Source: Candidatus Marithrix sp. Canyon 246 (GTDB lineage Bacteria > Pseudomonadota > Gammaproteobacteria > Beggiatoales > Beggiatoaceae). Taken from it: 64,000 nt of DNA. The DNA is taken from the NCBI RefSeq assembly GCF_001723685.1, contig NZ_MCBX01000038.1, positions 1 to 64,000 of the forward strand. Direction: 5' to 3'. Shown in pieces: positions 4,611 to 19,572 of this stretch; position 1 is the stretch's first letter; each line of letters opens with the position of its first letter. Position numbers and translations under genes: made by a program. The notes beneath the pieces were generated by a model. That model was given only the letters and a program-made list of their open reading frames with translations, searched no databases and was not told the origin of the DNA.

Positions 4611-4985
4611 ATGGCAAATAAACGCCCCTTATCACCTCATTTACAAATTTATCAACCTCAATTAACATCTTTGATGTCAATTTTGCATCGTTTAAGCGGT
4701 GTGTTTTTATCATTAGGCACTGTGGTTTTAGCTTATTGGTTAATTGCCGCTGCTTCTGGTGCAGAAGCTTATCAACAGGCACAAGATTTATTAGGTTCTT
4801 TCTTGGGTTTATTGTTTTTATTTGGATGGTCTTTTGCTTTGTTTTATCATTTATGTAATGGTATTCGTCATTTGTTTTGGGATATTGGTTTGGGTATGGA
4901 TATTAAGATGGTTTATCTTAGTGGTAAATTGGTTTTGCTAGCAAGTTTTGTTTTAACCGCTTTAGCATGGTGGTTGGCTTTATGA
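4611..4985 (+). CDS. sdhC: Succinate dehydrogenase cytochrome b556 subunit
   Basis: A 124-residue membrane protein with three predicted transmembrane helices. It contains the SdhC signatures RPLSPHLQIYQPQLTS near the N-terminus, SILHRLSG, and HLCNGIRHLFWDIG, which includes the haem-ligand histidine region. It anchors SdhAB to the membrane and helps form the quinone site and haem b pocket. The stop overlaps the sdhD start by four bases. Unusually, sdhA and sdhB do not follow; decayed genes do. A gutted copy of this 5' end occurs near 7788. Confidence 0.95.
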   Translation: MANKRPLSPHLQIYQPQLTSLMSILHRLSGVFLSLGTVVLAYWLIAAASGAEAYQQAQDLLGSFLGLLFLFGWSFALFYHLCNGIRHLFWDIGLGMDIKMVYLSGKLVLLASFVLTALAWWLAL

Positions 4986-5356
4986 ATAATTTAAGAACTC
5001 CATTATCTCGTGTACGTCTTTTAGGTTCTGCTAAAGATGGAACTGCTAAGTTTATTCTGCAACGTGTTACTGCGCTAGCTTTAATTCCTTTATTAGTTTG
5101 GTTTGTAAGTTCAGTTATATTTTATATTCATAAGGCTGATCATGCCGCTTTAGTTTCTTGGATAACTTCTTCTTGGAATAGCACATTGTTAATTTTGCTA
5201 CTCATTAATTTGTTTTATCATACTGTAATTGGTTTACAGGAAGTGATAGAAGATTATGTGCATAGTCATTATATGAAGCTATTTATGATCATTTTTATTA
5301 AATTTTTCTTTATAACTATCGCGTTTGCTTCAATTTTGGCGGTTTTAAAATTTTAA
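4982..5356 (+). CDS. sdhD: Succinate dehydrogenase membrane anchor subunit
   Basis: A 124-residue protein starting at the ATG that overlaps the sdhC stop (ATGA). It has three transmembrane helices, the SdhD-type start NNLRTPLSRVRLLGSAKDG, and HTVIGLQEVIEDYVHS near the haem/quinone region. With SdhC it anchors complex II. A closely related second copy lacking the first third lies at about 7826-8110. The catalytic subunits are not in the window, so they must be encoded elsewhere or have been separated by insertion of the 5.4-7.8 kb segment. Confidence 0.93.
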   Translation: MNNLRTPLSRVRLLGSAKDGTAKFILQRVTALALIPLLVWFVSSVIFYIHKADHAALVSWITSSWNSTLLILLLINLFYHTVIGLQEVIEDYVHSHYMKLFMIIFIKFFFITIAFASILAVLKF

Positions 5357-5436: not shown

Positions 5437-5826
5437 ATGAAAATTAAATTATATTATTTATTAGCTATAATATATATAGCTTTGTCATCTACTGCTCAAG
5501 CAGGTAGCACTCTGAGTGCATTTTGCCCTTATTGGTGATCCAGATGGTAAAGGGAATGATGATAAGGATGGTACCAAATATATATTTTGTGGTTTAAAAC
5601 CAAATCACACAGTGACCTGTTCTTCTCCTAGTGGAAATTTTTTTCATGTTGTTACAGGTGGACATTATAGCGATATAACTCCAAAATTAATGCTGATTTA
5701 TCTCTACATTTTGACAAAGCGAAATATGAAACCTTGACTGGTACTTCATATTTATGGGCTGATTTTAGTTTTGCTGGTAAGAATGAACAAGGAAAAATGA
5801 GTTGGTATTTGGATAATTGCTGTTGA
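5437..5826 (+). pseudogene. Frameshifted small secreted protein remnant
   Basis: Begins with a clear signal peptide (MKIKLYYLLAIIYIALSSTAQA) after an AAGG-like site, then runs into a stop after GSTLSAFCPYW. The coding signal continues in another frame (ALIGDPDGKGNDDKDG, GLKPNHTVTCSS) and, near 5695, switches again to NADLSLHFDKAKYETLTG...YLDNC before stopping at 5826. At least two frameshifts are needed to read one protein. I do not recognise the family. It may be a decayed gene or may reflect sequencing error. Confidence 0.55.
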
Positions 5827-5828
5827 GT

Positions 5829-5865
5829 CTTGTAGAGTCGGTGATAACCGACCCTACAGATACTG
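5829..5865. repeat. GTCGGT...ACCGACCCTACAG palindrome, copy 1
   Basis: A 37-bp unit whose core GTCGGTGATAACCGAC is an inverted repeat and which ends CCCTACAGATACTG. A near-identical unit (two or three differences) lies at 60208-60244. It sits immediately after the stop of a decayed gene and may act as a transcription-ending hairpin. Confidence 0.75.
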
Positions 5866-5885
5866 ATTCCATTCGTGCGTAAGGA

Positions 5886-6549
5886 TCAGGAAAAATAGTG
5901 TAAATGCCATGCTTTGGGCTGATATTTATCAGATATGAATAATAATCTTGATCTGATTTCCGCTGTTCGTTTAAAAATATTATTCCAAGTATCATTGGCT
6001 TGTGCTTGCTGTAAATTCTGCATCCAATACCACGTAAAGACTCCATAATATTTATTTGTTTCCATTGGTAATTCAATTGCAGATTCATATTCTCTAGCAG
6101 CACCAATGCGAATACCCATATGAGTTTGTAATTTTGGATATTGTTTTAAACACAACGTTATTACTACTACGGGCAGCATAAGACACCCAAGTTTGATCTT
6201 TACCACTGAGTTCATCACCATTTAAATCAAGAGTTTGTGAACCATGACCAGAATAATATATATAAACAAAATCATTAGCTTGAACGCGCTGAATTAACTT
6301 TTTAAAGCCATTTTCAATACCAGTATGAGTGGCTTGTTTATTGCTAAGAATGATAAAAATATCATTTATTGGACCTTTTAGCGAATTGAAAGGCGTTTGA
6401 CTATAATCCTCAATAGCAATCAACAAGGCATGTTTATCGGCAGCCATTAGCTTGATTGAGATTATTTGTGATATAATTAATAATATTAATGTATAATGCA
6501 AGATTAAGTAACTGATGTTACATACTAGCATTTTGTCATTATCAAACAC
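5886..6549 (-). pseudogene. Decayed caspase-like protease (peptidase C14)
   Basis: The N-terminal frame (6549 down to about 6150) holds a hydrophobic segment, the p20 start KHALLIAIEDYSQTPFNSLKGPINDI, and the catalytic-histidine motif VYIYYSGHGSQT followed by KDQTWVSYAARS. The reading then shifts frame into KLQTHMGIRIGAAREYESA and a C-terminal tail. The stretch that should carry the catalytic cysteine (DxCHSG type) is missing between the two parts. So this is a metacaspase-like gene with an internal deletion and frameshift, not an active protease. It lies head-to-head with the TPR-CHAT remnant. Confidence 0.7.
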
Positions 6550-7787: not shown

Positions 7788-8110
7788 TCTAATAATGGAT
7801 TTACTATGATAAATAAACCCAAATTATGACCGTGCTGAGTATACTTTGGTTTGTAAGTTCAATTATATTTTATATTCATAAAGCTGATCATGCCGCTTTA
7901 GTTTCTTGGATAGCTTCTGCTTGGAATAGCGAATTGTTAATTTTGCTACTAATTAATTTATTTTATCATACTGTAATTGGTTTACAGGAAGTGATAGAAG
8001 ATTATGTGTATCATCATTACATGAAGTTATTTATGATCATTTCTATCAAATTTTTCTTTATAACTATCGCGCTTGCTTCAATTTTGGCGGTTTTAAAAAT
8101 GGCTGTCTAA
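7788..8110 (+). pseudogene. Internally deleted second copy of sdhCD
   Basis: The sequence GGATTTACTATG plus ATAAATAAACCC (about 7795) matches the sdhC start region near 4600, with a stop directly after the ATG. The match to sdhC is lost after about 20 bases, and at about 7845 the sequence becomes a close copy of sdhD from WFVSSxIFYIHKADHAALVSW to the end. The open frame 7826-8110 encodes only 94 residues and lacks the first third of SdhD. This copy and the intact sdhCD bracket the caspase/CHAT remnants. It may make a two-helix fragment but is probably non-functional. Confidence 0.75.
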
Positions 8111-9674: not shown

Positions 9675-10229
9675 GTGTTAAAAAACCTTTCAATTATTGT
9701 AATTTTAGCCACTATCATTAGTGCTTGTAATGATGATGCTAGTTCGCCGGTTGTTGATTTTCCTCCGCCTGAATTGTCGCATAAGCGCACGGCTTTGGTT
9801 ATTGGTAATTCTCATTATACTAATCATATTTTTCCGGTTTTGGAAAATCCTGTTAATGATGCTAAGGATTTGGCGGTGGTTTTGCGCAAGTTGGGATTTG
9901 AGGTTATTGAGTTGTTTGATGCTATTGGTCAGTTTCGTGATAAGTTACTTATTAATAAGGGGGTTGGTTTGTTTTATTATTCTGGGCATGGTGTTGATTA
10001 TGCGGGTAAGAATCATTTGATTCCTTTGGGTAATAAGATTGAGGTTTCTTATGATGTTGATGAGACTGCTGAGACTATTGCTGTTAGTTATGTGTTGAAT
10101 GAGATGCAGAAGGCTGGTAATCATATGAATTTTTTGGTTTTGGATGCTTGTCGTAAGGCGCGGAAAATTAAGGCAAGTAATAAATCTGATGATAAGGGTA
10201 TGAAGGCTATTCCTGAGTGGTTTGGGTGA
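9675..10229 (+). CDS. Caspase-like domain, N-terminal part of broken caspase-FGE protein
   Basis: Starts at GTG after AGGAA, with a hydrophobic leader ending SAC, so probably a lipoprotein. The peptidase C14 domain is well formed: RTALVIGNSHYTN, ENPVNDAKDLAVVLRKLGFEV, the histidine motif GLFYYSGHGVDY, and the cysteine motif NFLVLDACRKARK. The frame stops at 10229 while homologous sequence (ERNSPYVKHLIRF) continues in the next frame, and the segment usually found between them is missing. Together with the next two entries this was one protein: lipoprotein-caspase-FGE. It could be a frameshifted gene or an assembly error; both catalytic residues remain in this part. Confidence 0.8.
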   Translation: MLKNLSIIVILATIISACNDDASSPVVDFPPPELSHKRTALVIGNSHYTNHIFPVLENPVNDAKDLAVVLRKLGFEVIELFDAIGQFRDKLLINKGVGLFYYSGHGVDYAGKNHLIPLGNKIEVSYDVDETAETIAVSYVLNEMQKAGNHMNFLVLDACRKARKIKASNKSDDKGMKAIPEWFG

Positions 10230-10473
10230 GCGTAATAGTCCTTATGTTAAGCATTTAATAAGGTTTATACAGGAACCTAATTTGTCTGTTGAGGGGATGT
10301 TTAAGAAAGTTGGTGCGGCTGTTGTAAATGAGACTAATCAGCAGCAGGAGCCGGGCTTTTATACTCAGTTGTATGATCCTTTTTCTTTTAATCCTCAAGC
10401 AGTAAAGCCTAAAGTTGTTGATAATTCTTCTGAGCTTTTGAAAAGAATATCTGAATTGGAGTTAAGAAAGTAA
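10222..10473 (+). pseudogene. Middle part of caspase-FGE protein, out of frame
   Basis: An 83-residue stretch in a different frame from its neighbours. NSPYVKHLIRFIQEPNLS and EGMFKKVGAAVVNETNQQQE are the usual C-terminal portion of bacterial caspase-like domains that precede FGE domains, followed by a short linker (ELLKRISELELRK). No ribosome binding site precedes it. It links the caspase part upstream to the FGE part downstream, where KVFQDRLKDGG can be read upstream of the ATG at 10524. Confidence 0.7.
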
Positions 10474-10523
10474 AAAGTAAAGTCTTTCAAGATCGTTTAA
10501 AAGATGGTGGTTTTGCTCCAGAG

Positions 10524-11180
10524 ATGGTTAGAATCCCGGCTGGTTCTTTTAGGATGGGTGGTGAATATTCAGATGAAAAGCAACATGATGTTTCGGTTGA
10601 TAGCTTTGCTATGGGTAAATATGAAGTTACCTTTGCTGAATATGATAAGTTTGCTGATGCTACTGGTAGAGAAAAGCCTAGTGATAGAGGCTGGGGGCGT
10701 GGTAATCGTCCAGTAATTAATGTTTCTTGGAATGATGCAACAGCTTATTCAAAATGGCTTAGTAATCAAACAGGTAAAACTTATCGTCTGCCTACTGAGG
10801 CTGAATGGGAATATGCAGCTAGGGCTGGTACGCAGACTAAGTATTGGTGGGGTAATGAGATTGGTAACAATAAAGCGAACTGTAATTCTGATTGTGGAGA
10901 TAGTTTTGAATATACATCGCCAGTAGGTTCATTTGCTGCTAATAAATTTGGTTTATATGATACTTCAGGAAATGTATGGGAGTGGACTTGCTCAGAATGG
11001 GATAATCCATATAATGGCAATGAAAAACAATGCGTTACAACTGGAAATAGTTTGTCCATTCGCGGCGGCTCGTGGAACTACTTCGCGAGGGTCGTGCGCT
11101 CGGCTTTCCGCGGCAGGTTCAAGCCGTCGTTCCGCAACAACAGCGTGGGCTTCCGGGTCTCCATGCTCGTAACCCTTTAA
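10524..11180 (+). CDS. FGE-sulfatase (C-type lectin fold) domain with DGR variable C-terminus
   Basis: A 218-residue formylglycine-generating-enzyme-like (SUMF1) domain: MVRIPAGSFRMGG, YEVTFAEYDKFADATG, RPVINVSWNDATAYSKWLS, RLPTEAEWEYAARAG, FGLYDTSGNVWEWTCSEW and a final IRGGSWNYF...VGFRVS. The coding signal extends upstream in frame to about 10473 (KVFQDRLKDGG), so the ATG is only the first Met of the open stretch. From about 11058 base composition jumps sharply to GC-rich, and the codons there match a DGR variable region. The domain is presumably used for ligand display rather than catalysis. Parent protein: lipoprotein-caspase-FGE, now broken by two frameshifts. Confidence 0.85.
   Translation: MVRIPAGSFRMGGEYSDEKQHDVSVDSFAMGKYEVTFAEYDKFADATGREKPSDRGWGRGNRPVINVSWNDATAYSKWLSNQTGKTYRLPTEAEWEYAARAGTQTKYWWGNEIGNNKANCNSDCGDSFEYTSPVGSFAANKFGLYDTSGNVWEWTCSEWDNPYNGNEKQCVTTGNSLSIRGGSWNYFARVVRSAFRGRFKPSFRNNSVGFRVSMLVTL
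11058..11166 (+). other. Candidate DGR variable region (VR)
   Basis: The last 40 codons of the FGE domain are about 67% GC (bases 11061-11160), against the mid-30s in surrounding DNA. The segment begins at the RGGSW motif, where FGE-type DGR targets normally begin to vary. Codons TAC, TTC, GTC, TTC, GGC, TTC, TTC, AAC, AAC and AGC occupy the variable surface positions; each can derive from AAC by adenine-specific mutagenesis, while invariant positions (TGG, CGC, TCG, CCG) lack A. No template repeat or reverse transcriptase is visible in this window, so it would have to be acted on in trans. Confidence 0.8.
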
Positions 11181-11233: not shown

Positions 11234-11259
11234 TTCTGATTAGTTTTCACTAATCAGAA
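11234..11259. other. Perfect 11-bp hairpin downstream of the VR
   Basis: TTCTGATTAGT, loop TTTC, then ACTAATCAGAA. The four-base loop reads GAAA on the other strand, matching the GRNA-type tetraloop of hairpin/cruciform elements found after DGR variable regions. It is about 65 bp beyond the GC-rich block, farther than in the Bordetella phage element, and could instead be a terminator stem. Confidence 0.55.
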
Positions 11260-11301: not shown

Positions 11302-11339
11302 AATATCCTTGCTTATATGCAATCTATGTAGTTTTTTTG
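11302..11339. repeat. Dispersed CTTGCTTATATRCAATCT repeat, copy 2
   Basis: CTTGCTTATATGCAATCT followed by ATGTAGTTTTTTTGGGG. Almost the same 38 bases recur at 12544-12581; shorter matches lie at 2231 and 48596. Confidence 0.65.
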
Positions 11340-11411
11340 GGGCTATTGGTTGTACTCAAGATTCTATGTTAAGTACAACCAATAGTAATAACAACGAATA
11401 GTTAGTGCTAT

Positions 11412-16176: not shown

Positions 16177-17496
16177 GTGAAATCTCAAGAACCAATATTT
16201 TTAGATTGTCCTTTTTCTGAAAAGGATGAAGTTAAACGCTTAGGTGCAAAGTTTGATTGGCAGGAAAAACAATGGTTTGTTCCTGTTGGACTTGATCTTG
16301 ATCCATTTAGTAAATGGTTGTCTAAGCAAGTTGATAATGATCAGCCTTTTAGTCTTTATGATTTAATGTTAAGTGTTCAAAGCACTGTCAATACGCAACT
16401 TAATGATCGTTATTGGGTACGCGCTGAGTTGGTTAGTGTCTCACATCATGTTCATTTATATATGGAATTATCTGATCATGATAATGAAGGGCAAGAACTT
16501 GCCAAAGTGCGTGCTATTTTGTGGAATCATAGAGCTAAGGAACTATTAAAACGTTTTGAAACACAAACTGGTATGCCTTTTAAGGCTGGAATGAAGTTGT
16601 TATTACAAGTTCGTGTTGAATTTCATACTCGTTATGGTTTTTCGCTTGATGTTATAGATATTGATCCTAATTTCACTATCGGTGAAATGGCAGCAAAATT
16701 GAATCGTATTAGAATGCGATTACAAGAAGAGAAGCTTTATGATTGTAATCAAACAATTAAAACTCCAATAGAATTTTGTAAAGTCGCAGTAATTGCGCCA
16801 CCACAAGCAGCAGGTTTAGGAGATTTTAAAAGTCAAGCTAAAGGATTAGCTGATTTGTGTGAATTTCATTATTACAATGCTAGTTTTCAAGGGCAACAAA
16901 TGTTGACTGAAATCACTGCCGCTTTTGAATTAATAAAACAAGATCATAAGGAAAAACAATTTGATGCAGTAGTTATGATACGCGGAGGTGGTGCTAAAGC
17001 TGACTTATTTCAGTTGAATGAATATGAGATTGCTAAGGCAATTTGTACCGCACCATTAGCTGTAATTGTTGGTATAGGGCATGAACGAGACCAAACTTTA
17101 TTAGATGAAGTGGCAAATAAGACTTGTCATACACCTAGCTTAGTGATTACATATATTGCAAGTAGAATTATTCAAAATGCGCAGAATGCCAAACAAGATT
17201 GGCAAATGCTGAATAAATTAGTCAGCGAACAACTATACCGTGCCAAAACCGAAAATGAACGCCTAATAACCAAGATTCATCACAACAGCCAAATTCAATT
17301 AAATAAAGCTCGCCATAATATACAATCTTTTATGCAACAGATACTACAAAGCGATCCTAAAAAGGTTTTAAAGCGTGGCTATGCTATTGTCAAAAATACT
17401 AATAATAAAATTATTAGCTCCAAACTTGCCGCTGAACAAGAACCACAACTTATTATTGAATTTCAAGATGGTCAAATAAATCTTGAAAATCTTTAG
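16177..17496 (+). CDS. xseA: Exonuclease VII large-subunit-like protein with DUF5710 N-terminus
   Basis: A 439-residue protein starting at GTG. Residues about 5-50 form a DUF5710-like module (FLDCPFSEKDEVKRLGAKFDW, QWFVPVGLD) often attached to DNA-processing enzymes. Residues about 60-165 are an OB-fold DNA-binding domain (RYWVRAELVSVSHH, LLLQVRVEFH). The rest is the Exonuc_VII_L catalytic region with KVAVIAPPQAAGLGDFKSQ, DAVVMIRGGGAKADLFQLN, VGIGHERDQTLLDEVANK and HTPSL. Family members degrade single-stranded DNA with XseB. The DUF5710 head makes it differ from housekeeping XseA. Its 3' end overlaps the convergent DUF4435 gene by 44 bp. Confidence 0.85.
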   Translation: MKSQEPIFLDCPFSEKDEVKRLGAKFDWQEKQWFVPVGLDLDPFSKWLSKQVDNDQPFSLYDLMLSVQSTVNTQLNDRYWVRAELVSVSHHVHLYMELSDHDNEGQELAKVRAILWNHRAKELLKRFETQTGMPFKAGMKLLLQVRVEFHTRYGFSLDVIDIDPNFTIGEMAAKLNRIRMRLQEEKLYDCNQTIKTPIEFCKVAVIAPPQAAGLGDFKSQAKGLADLCEFHYYNASFQGQQMLTEITAAFELIKQDHKEKQFDAVVMIRGGGAKADLFQLNEYEIAKAICTAPLAVIVGIGHERDQTLLDEVANKTCHTPSLVITYIASRIIQNAQNAKQDWQMLNKLVSEQLYRAKTENERLITKIHHNSQIQLNKARHNIQSFMQQILQSDPKKVLKRGYAIVKNTNNKIISSKLAAEQEPQLIIEFQDGQINLENL

Positions 17497-18364
17497 GAAG
17501 TTGCTTTTCTTTCAAAATACGAGCTAATTCAGATTTGTGGTTATTTAGTTGAATATTAACCTGAGTCTGTTTTTTTAATTTCCGGTTAAATTGGCTGGCA
17601 AAATATAGTTTGGCACTGGCAAATTTTAGAGCTTCATTATTTTCAATTAATTCTTTTTTAAATTCTAAGAACTTGGATAAGATTTGATCTTTCTGAAATT
17701 GATTTAATTTCTGAAGTATTCTATTTTTAATGTTCTCTTCTTCGCAAGAAATAGTTTCTTCTAAAAAGCTTTTAGAAGGGTCAAAATAACGGATGGTTAA
17801 ATTAGCAGCCGCTATATATGTTAAACAGCTTAAAATTGCCTGAATAATTTGTTGCTCTAAGTTTTCTTTTCCATTTTTTATCAGAGGTATAAGTTTTTTG
17901 TGGCTTATCGATTGCCCTACTAAAAACTCATATAAAATATCTGAATCTATAAAATAATTTTCTAAAGTGTAAGCCTCAAAAAAAATAAACAATCTACCAT
18001 CATAACAAACTTGTTGTTTTTCCTCTTTTACTTCTTGATCGGTTTTTAAATCTCTATCAATAATGCCATAAAAACGTTTTTCTTTGGGTAAATGTTTAAC
18101 AAAATCTTTTAAATGTTGTTTAACTTTTTCACAACCACCAGTGCCTTTAAGATCCGCTGTTGTAAAACTTGTATCTATAAAATATAGTTTGTCCAAATTA
18201 TCTTCATATAGAATGCTATAAATCACTTCATCGTCATAACCTTCTACAAAAATAATCTTTTTTCTACCAGCTTTTTCAACCGCTGTTTTAAAAACTTGCC
18301 GTAAACTTTGATCAATAAAGTTGTATTTATTATCACTAATAGTGTTATTAAATTGTAAACTCAT
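17453..18364 (-). CDS. DUF4435 TOPRIM-like protein (AriB-like)
   Basis: A 303-residue protein with DUF4435 features: IIFVEGYDDEVIYSILYED near residue 38, GCEKVKQHLKDF, FYGIIDRDLKTDQE (acidic metal site) and FEAYTLENYFID. DUF4435 is a TOPRIM-type nuclease-like fold found in AriB, the effector of PARIS anti-phage systems, and in other ATPase-linked defence pairs. It starts one base after the stop of the ATPase gene, so the two are co-translated. Its end overlaps the xseA end by 44 bp. A PARIS identity is inferred from domain pairing and order; a related OLD-like pair is the alternative. Confidence 0.75.
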   Translation of the reverse strand: MSLQFNNTISDNKYNFIDQSLRQVFKTAVEKAGRKKIIFVEGYDDEVIYSILYEDNLDKLYFIDTSFTTADLKGTGGCEKVKQHLKDFVKHLPKEKRFYGIIDRDLKTDQEVKEEKQQVCYDGRLFIFFEAYTLENYFIDSDILYEFLVGQSISHKKLIPLIKNGKENLEQQIIQAILSCLTYIAAANLTIRYFDPSKSFLEETISCEEENIKNRILQKLNQFQKDQILSKFLEFKKELIENNEALKFASAKLYFASQFNRKLKKQTQVNIQLNNHKSELARILKEKQLPKDFQDLFDHLEIQ

Positions 18365-18365
18365 C

Positions 18366-19448
18366 TTATATCACCAATTCTGTTAAGCTGATAAAACCTT
18401 TATCTTTAAACTGATCCCAAATTATTTCAGAATGAGATGAAATAATAATTTGACAATCTGTATCTTTTTGTAGTTGTTTCAGAAGTCTCATTACTTGTTC
18501 TTGAAATTCAGGATGAAGACTTTGATCAACTTCATCTATCAAAAAAATTGCATTTTGCGAAGCTCTTAAATAAAGTTGAGTTGCTATAATCAATAGACTT
18601 TCTTCACCAGAACTTAATAGTTCAAGTCCATGTTTTTCGCCATCTTTGGTTTCAATAACTACTTGAAAGTTAATTCTATCTATTTCTTTAATAGTTTTGC
18701 CAACTAGAACATGCTTATTAATCCAAGCTTTTAACTCGTTAAATTTTTTTGAAAGGGCATAGTCATAAAAAACTAGTGTTCTGGTAAGATCATCTTTATT
18801 AGGATTATATCTATGAGCTATTTCATATTTCAGTTTTTGTTGAGGAATTGAACTATAGTGAATATCTTGTATTTCTCTATCATGCGAATTAAAAAAATAA
18901 ATAAAGGGTATATTTTGTTGTATGTCATTAGTTATTTTCCCCTCTTTATAATCAATTTTTCTTTCAGAAAACGATTTTACTAATTGTAAACCAATTGTTT
19001 CTTGATAAATATTTAGACCTTGAATCTGTGAATGATCATAATCTTCCGGAATTTTAACAAAATTATCCTCAAAGTCTTTTATCATAGTCTTTATTTCATT
19101 TTCTATGATAAAGCCTTGTTTTCCAATATATTCACTATGGATTTGAATATTGTTTAAGTCTCCTAAAACTAATGATAAAACTTTATCTTTTATTAAAATA
19201 TCCAATTGGGCAAATTCTGTCCAAGTTAAAACGTTCGCTCGTAATCTATCGAAAGATATGTTTTGTAGAGATAAATCAGGATTTATGAAATTGATTAGAT
19301 TGAAAATTAATTCCATCACAGTAGTTTTACCGGAACCATTAACACCAGCTAGACAAATTAAATTTTGAGGTTCACCATTATGAGTAAAATCTATTAAGGT
19401 ATTTTTGAATACCCCACTATTATGAATATATAACCTTAAAAGTCTCAT
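18366..19448 (-). CDS. AAA/ABC-type ATPase (AriA-like)
   Basis: The likely start is the internal ATG at 19448 (MRLLRLYIHNSGVFKNTLID), preceded by AGGACAT; this gives 360 residues. Features are a Walker A NGSGKTTVME within LICLAGVNGSGKTT, an ABC-type signature region (ELLSSGEESLLIIATQLYL), Walker B AIFLIDEVDQSLHPEFQEQ and a switch histidine IIISSHSEIIWDQF. This is the AAA_21/AAA_15 type used as sensor ATPase in PARIS, OLD and related defence systems. It is directly followed by the DUF4435 gene. It is probably a phage-defence sensor, but the trigger is unknown. Confidence 0.82.
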   Translation of the reverse strand: MRLLRLYIHNSGVFKNTLIDFTHNGEPQNLICLAGVNGSGKTTVMELIFNLINFINPDLSLQNISFDRLRANVLTWTEFAQLDILIKDKVLSLVLGDLNNIQIHSEYIGKQGFIIENEIKTMIKDFEDNFVKIPEDYDHSQIQGLNIYQETIGLQLVKSFSERKIDYKEGKITNDIQQNIPFIYFFNSHDREIQDIHYSSIPQQKLKYEIAHRYNPNKDDLTRTLVFYDYALSKKFNELKAWINKHVLVGKTIKEIDRINFQVVIETKDGEKHGLELLSSGEESLLIIATQLYLRASQNAIFLIDEVDQSLHPEFQEQVMRLLKQLQKDTDCQIIISSHSEIIWDQFKDKGFISLTELVI

Positions 19449-19572
19449 GATATGTCCTATATTTATATTTTTTTTGTTATATTGATTAACAATCAAAATC
19501 ATATCATAGTTCAAATACTCTTAGGAGTAAATATTGCATAAATTACCTTTTATTTACTAAGGAATATGTAAT

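Follow-up and report, generated by a model that had tools for sequence, protein, structure and literature searches.

A probable remote DGR variable region at the end of a broken caspase–FGE gene in Candidatus Marithrix sp. Canyon 246

Described systems

Remote DGR targets, orthocaspase–CLec targets and remnant variable regions (VRs) have all been published from cyanobacteria, as set out in the relevant parts of Vallota-Eastman et al. (2020, PMC7517822). In the purple sulfur bacterium Thiohalocapsa PB-PSB1, DGR-diversified sensors have been described, some of them in trans (Dore et al. 2024, PMC10907252, in the passages cited here), and the same passages describe both TvpA of Treponema denticola and a Legionella target as outer membrane lipoproteins. 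FGE-type domains are mentioned together with DGRs in conflict systems in part of a further paper (PMC7159879), and Roux et al. state, in the corresponding section of theirs, that their own survey would miss remote targets (PMC8144416). A cell of Ca. Thiomargarita nelsonii is reported, in the section concerned, to contain 59 metacaspases and 62 reverse transcriptases (RTs) (PMC4853749). The term DGR is absent from the matches listed by a literature search on DGRs in Beggiatoa-type bacteria. Caspase–lectin and remote DGR targets are, in other words, already published, and the interest of the present case to specialists lies in an inverted template repeat (TR), in caspase targets that look exported and in the signs of decay.

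The locus lies in the genome of Candidatus Marithrix sp. Canyon 246 (3.24 Mb in 44 contigs, completeness 98.06, contamination 3.8%; here G000), within a stretch of 64 kb on contig C11, the whole of which is called the window below. Like the cyanobacterial DGRs, the system has remote targets, C-terminal CLec VRs, caspase-like N-terminal domains and remnant VRs without a nearby RT. It differs from them in that the cyanobacterial targets are mostly predicted to be cytosolic whereas the eight examined here look exported, and in that the TR is here inverted relative to an RT which looks truncated (the comparison being with the parts of PMC7517822 cited above). The DGR of Thiomargarita sp. isolate SulCav (DYNP01, locus L104) belongs to the same family as the window genome (NCBI: Thiotrichaceae); its RT is 64% identical and its VR likewise lies in an exported-looking caspase–FGE protein, of 533 aa, but the RT N-terminal stretch is present there and the TR is found 3′ of the RT on the same strand. 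Loci of a family genome (G011) match this metagenome-assembled record at 100% identity over up to 3.4 kb, which places the two genomes in one family. With Thiohalocapsa PB-PSB1 the present genome shares multiple targets, some of which are best explained by action in trans; the sensors of that bacterium carry effector domains, one target having a caspase-like CHAT domain, and belong with NACHT and ternary conflict systems in the passages cited (PMC10907252), whereas the targets here showed no such domain. The lectin-fold variable protein TvpA (2y3c) is a further likeness, although some targets here bear a caspase domain, unlike TvpA and the Legionella lipoprotein target.

The variable region and its template

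The VR occupies positions 11059 to 11162 of the window on the forward strand, in the last part of an FGE domain, and its similarity to the TR described below spans a little more (11050–11163). It stands out by composition, with 66.3% GC over 11059–11162 as against 37.7% over 9675–11058; across the 64 kb, only seven of 63,896 segments of 104 bp reach 66% GC or more, and these form a single run with starts at 11054–11063, which is the VR alone. The sequence-only reading had claimed such a jump in GC together with a DGR-type VR, and both are borne out. All 15 of the positions at which the VR differs from the TR (15 of 104) fall among the 27 template adenines (hypergeometric p = 3.6e-11). It had also proposed variable codons derived from AAC. 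The TR indeed holds 11 AAC codons, together with AGG, AGG, AAG and ACG, such that 27 of 27 template adenines lie at codon positions 1 or 2, and every change in the VR is on one of them. In none of the seven full-length VRs of the genome has the second adenine of the lone AAG codon changed. As in other DGRs, the VR sits 3′ in a lectin-fold target gene, as judged by PF03781 and by a fold model.

This model, built from 75 related sequences (pLDDT 93.3, pTM 0.92), replaced a poor earlier prediction from nine sequences (pLDDT 51.9). Among PDB structures PvdO matches it best and formylglycine-generating enzymes come next; TvpA (PDB 2y3c), the variable protein of a DGR, stands at rank 33, with a TM score of 0.78 by query length, and is also matched in sequence (E 1.2e-15).

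The window itself contains no RT gene, as had been said of it, with none of the nine RVT_1 matches of the genome on C11. A search of the genome with the VR gives 17 further places at E ≤ 10, the strongest being copies on C34, C3, C17, C30, C20 and C43, along with another stretch of C20. This other stretch (C20:9447–9550) is non-coding and is the TR; a DGR-type RT lies on the same contig. The earlier suggestion of a remote target with template and RT elsewhere has therefore survived the search of the whole genome for both. What began as a guess from raw sequence is now a checked case in which a single template is matched by seven full-length targets, one in cis and six in trans, and in which a second genome of the genus (G001) allows comparison.

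Taken together, the seven full-length VRs, on seven contigs (C11, C34, C3, C17, C30, C20 and C43), have 92 of their 96 differences from the TR at adenines, which have changed to G (50), T (36) or C (6), and four of the seven are free of any non-adenine change. Mean identity among them is 98.6% at non-adenine positions and 66.7% for the 60 bp upstream. This count leaves aside C6, which aligns in its 3′ part only, and two copies that follow the adenine rule poorly, namely C22, which is divergent and out of frame in its VR, and C25, with nine differences at adenines and 17 elsewhere. A pattern of this kind is produced by recent copying from a single template and not by common ancestry of the genes. 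The RNA of the TR would have been copied into cDNA, errors arising at adenines, and this cDNA would then have replaced a VR, erasing older changes; replacement by cDNA is suggested because the non-adenine positions are nearly identical although the flanks differ by a third.

Some 70 bp past the VR, a 10-bp stem with a 6-base loop can be read from the sequence after the gene (11234–11259, forward strand), and is probably a terminator. The same stem-loop occurs 3′ of the C3 and C30 VRs, and so at three of the seven VR loci including the window, as well as 3′ of the G001 ortholog; it was not seen in the 110 bases 3′ of the C34, C17, C20 and C43 VRs. A DGR cruciform was considered for this element, but some 70 bp part it from the VR and it is not seen after four of the seven. 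An inverted repeat (cruciform) after the VR is described as dispensable in the BPP-1 system, in the passage concerned (PMC12875486). Beyond the stem-loop, a stretch of about 35–40 bases (11302–11341) has many scattered matches in the same-genus genome and is a dispersed short repeat.

The broken target gene

The gene that ends in the VR had been taken to encode a single caspase–FGE protein, and this does not hold for the window, where the domains lie in separate frames (+1, +2, +1) with stops between them. On the forward strand, a 184-aa open reading frame at 9675–10229 encodes a p20-type caspase (Peptidase_C14; PF00656, 61.9 bits, E 9.4e-17) with a lipoprotein-type N-terminus (lipobox-like ISAC, by pattern and hydropathy). 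A C-terminal caspase remnant follows in another frame at 10204–10473 (PF00656, 22 bits on 10222–10473; frame +2 relative to the ortholog), and the FGE-sulfatase frame that carries the VR, at 10455–11180 (PF03781, 189.1 bits, E 1.5e-55), has its first ATG at 10524 and is separated from the caspase by stops. The stop-to-stop frames accordingly end at 10229, 10473 and 11180.

In G001, the ortholog at the same place is one frame of 594 aa, containing both caspase and FGE domains and a different VR-like end; two extra genes separate it from the neighbouring glycosyltransferase. Residues 13–203 of this protein match the window in frame +1, residues 227–309 in frame +2 and residues 322–588 again in frame +1, such that the window pieces are parted by deletions relative to the ortholog, with stops between. 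A programmed frameshift was judged unlikely, the ortholog revealing deletions at both places. As assembled, the gene in the window is broken in its reading frames, and its last part bears a fresh-looking VR; the protein would have decayed through deletions that shift the frame in mid-caspase and through stops that part protease from lectin. Homing acts on DNA and so should need no intact target.

Several other features of the window may be recorded here. On the reverse strand, 3 kb before the target gene, three overlapping open reading frames at 5765–6549 with a caspase-like match (C11:6172–6435) look like another decayed caspase gene. On the forward strand, the C-terminal part of an sdhD-like membrane protein (4967–5356) is repeated nearly verbatim 2.5 kb downstream (7826–8110), a partial duplication. 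Further on, an adjacent gene pair on the reverse strand (17453–19514) resembles PARIS-type defence, with an AriB-like match of 45.5 bits and an AAA ATPase that is AriA-like at 77.7 bits and PtuA-like at a slightly better 81.6 bits.

The C20 cassette

On one strand of C20 lie a cis target, that is an FGE gene with its VR, together with Avd and the RT, and on the opposite strand a gene resembling MutS domain I followed by the TR. DGR-type RTs are marked by the motifs I/L/V-GxxxSQ and YxDD, and group II intron type RTs by QGG(I/V)ISP. The C20 RT (RVT_1, 74.8 bits) has IGNLTSQ and YVDD; the other eight RVT_1 matches of the genome comprise five full-length ones with QGG(I/V)ISP and three fragments, two of them at one place on C44, so that no second DGR-type RT is found among the nine. 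The best 80 named relatives of the C20 RT, among at least 561 confirmed ones, reach up to 65% identity. Avd scores 44.7 bits against bAvd (cut-off 40) and 77.6 against the NCBIfam model DivGenRetAVD, whose curated cut-off is 80, a sub-cut-off score such as a truncated Avd might give.

TR and RT are thus on opposite strands in this genome. A scan of 31 of 80 named loci found a TR/VR pair in 24 and none in seven, and 22 of those 24 have their top-ranked TR on the same strand as the RT, with L125 ambiguous and L127 doubtful. The sequence 3′ of the own TR has blocks in common with the post-TR sequence of four family genomes, from which it would seem that TR and spacer have moved as a unit. The Rfam model RT-14 gives 28 bits on the post-TR spacer, below its gathering score of 48.1, and none was listed in those four relatives at E ≤ 0.1, in a less sensitive search of 12 times more sequence.

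The stand-alone MutS domain I gene (112 aa, 49.2 bits; L028:9058–9396 on C20) lies directly 5′ of the TR on the same strand. A homologue occurs in one of the 80 named loci (L137), and nine of 42 genomes of the family, the own genome counted, have a match at E ≤ 1e-6, five of which, with frames of 857–902 codons, are probably ordinary MutS. The best foreign match adjoins a DGR on contig C112 of another family genome (G017), in which TR and RT share a strand, a stop interrupts the RT, and the DGR neighbour is an exported-looking caspase with a partial FGE domain, itself broken. A MutS-like accessory protein exists for DGRs. Among the matches listed by a literature search, no DGR paper names it, and MutS appears as a host repair gene in the relevant part of PMC12875486. 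The C20 protein might conceivably protect intermediates of retrohoming against mismatch repair.

Target architecture and export

The sequence-only reading had linked a lectin to a protease. This link is not supported for the window copy, with its deletions and stops as against the single frame of its ortholog, but other places of the genome hold intact caspase–FGE targets: stop-to-stop frames of 554 codons on C34 and 603 codons on C30, both with a VR, combine the two domains, as does a 589-codon frame on C25 with an old VR. The genus is very rich in caspase homologs, Peptidase_C14 matches at E ≤ 0.001 (fragments counted) numbering 36 in G000 and 21 in G001.

All eight targets examined, C6 and C22 being outside this assessment, have export-type N-termini by pattern and hydropathy. 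A loose lipobox follows the hydrophobic stretch in four of them (window ISAC, C34 LSGC, C30 LVSC, C43 TTSC); the C25 N-terminus has a lipobox-like LNSC that the pattern does not match, and C3, C17 and C20 look Sec-type, C20 from an internal start only. The ortholog in G001 has a hydrophobic anchor. The N-termini suggest that an envelope function is likelier for these targets than that of a cytosolic death protease, and the earlier epithet ‘death-type’ is doubtful, as the targets examined look exported. Such proteins, often of lipoprotein type, would carry a lectin-fold site of hypervariable sequence and display it at the cell envelope, and in some of them this site would be joined to a caspase-like protease regulated by ligand binding.

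Caspase–FGE proteins are also encoded near other DGR RTs. Nine named caspase–FGE open reading frames were scanned singly and all nine contain both domains; of these, five appear to be exported (Thiomargarita L104, Hahella L121, Kuenenia L130 and two in Blastocatellia L147) and four begin directly in the caspase domain (L111, L159, L169 and L170). A VR lies within the gene for L104, L121, L130, L111 and L159, the loci among these that were covered by the VR scan (L147, L169 and L170 lay outside it).

Signs of decay

Alignment with six relatives shows that the C20 RT is without some 33 N-terminal residues, which are present in five of the six and absent in L052; in the own genome stops occupy the position of this stretch. 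At least 30 codons are open there in 60 of the 61 named loci examined (of 80), L118, which is partly masked, being counted as having the stretch and L127 being the exception. Avd has lost, at the same junction near 8.64–8.66 kb of C20, the conserved GGW(L/I) end carried by all four of the relatives aligned. Truncation of both RT and Avd at their junction argues that the system has probably been inactivated, and the four VRs without non-adenine change argue that this was recent. The RT and Avd truncation and the frame breaks in the window are known from one assembly, of 44 contigs and 3.8% contamination.

The two RVT_1 matches in G001 are each of group II type; a search with the own RT gives nothing there at E 1e-40, and no DGR-type RT match is present. 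The genome has six TR-like matches, four of which are FGE gene ends, one of these with an upstream stop; the match at L092 overlaps an FGE match and that at L098 has upstream stops. The DGR machine looks damaged in the species of the window and absent from the other assembly of the genus, to judge from the genes present.

Alternative explanations

Paralogs are plentiful, with 24 FGE-sulfatase matches in the genome, and likeness of FGE gene ends could in principle be ordinary paralogy or gene conversion without any DGR. This explanation has next to no probability and was rejected, given that 92 of 96 differences are on adenines of one non-coding template beside an RT and Avd, that the pattern is significant for the window VR alone (p = 3.6e-11), and that the flanks are much less alike than the VRs. 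A second possibility, a DGR that is still active, in which the short RT and Avd reflect misassembly or a shortened form that works and rewriting of the window VR continues, would account for the four VRs free of non-adenine change, for the retention of the TR and of a spacer-like stretch after it, for the intact catalytic motifs of the RT and for the similarly short frame of L052. It is nevertheless unlikely: 60 of 61 named loci are open for at least 30 codons where the own RT has stops, the Avd end is lost at the same junction, and the same-genus genome is without any DGR-type RT match.

As regards the target itself, the window pieces might be functional, either as separate caspase and FGE proteins or as a full-length product via frameshifting; no stop interrupts the FGE frame before its end, an ATG is available in it at 10524, and caspase and FGE share a frame number while the middle piece differs. 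Such function appears distinctly improbable, however, in that the frame changes coincide with deletions relative to the ortholog, the FGE piece alone is without a signal sequence, and no slippery site expected to work in both directions was seen by eye. The intact paralogs, in turn, might act in the cytosol as death proteases, within abortive infection or a conflict system like the NACHT and ternary systems of the literature. Of 71 FGE open reading frames near named DGR RTs, 11 have a caspase, eight a TIR and 12 a NACHT domain, all three being common on DGR targets, and antigen sensors are proposed in the passages of PMC10907252 cited; against this, Pfam finds only FGE and caspase, and no NACHT, TIR or ternary conflict domains, on the pieces in the window and on seven further targets of the genome, and eight of the eight targets examined look exported, which makes a death protease a rather improbable role.

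The reading that we hold with high confidence is that the window VR is a remote VR of the C20 DGR, that its relatives would serve exported lectin display, that the window gene has decayed, and that the DGR was probably inactivated in recent times.

Significance

A wider picture can be put forward tentatively, as a possibility somewhat short of an even chance. Exported DGR-diversified caspase–lectins may be recurring sensor-proteases of the envelope, here and in those records of Thiomargarita, Hahella and Kuenenia where the gene contains a VR; one inverted TR behind a MutS-domain-I-like gene may have supplied seven or more scattered targets before a deletion between Avd and RT froze the repertoire; and the same-genus genome keeps VR-bearing genes without a DGR-type RT. 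The decay would suggest that targets, even broken ones, retain fresh-looking VRs after damage to the machinery, and the exported caspase–lectin architecture raises the question of whether bacterial caspases can be wired to an extracytoplasmic hypervariable sensor.
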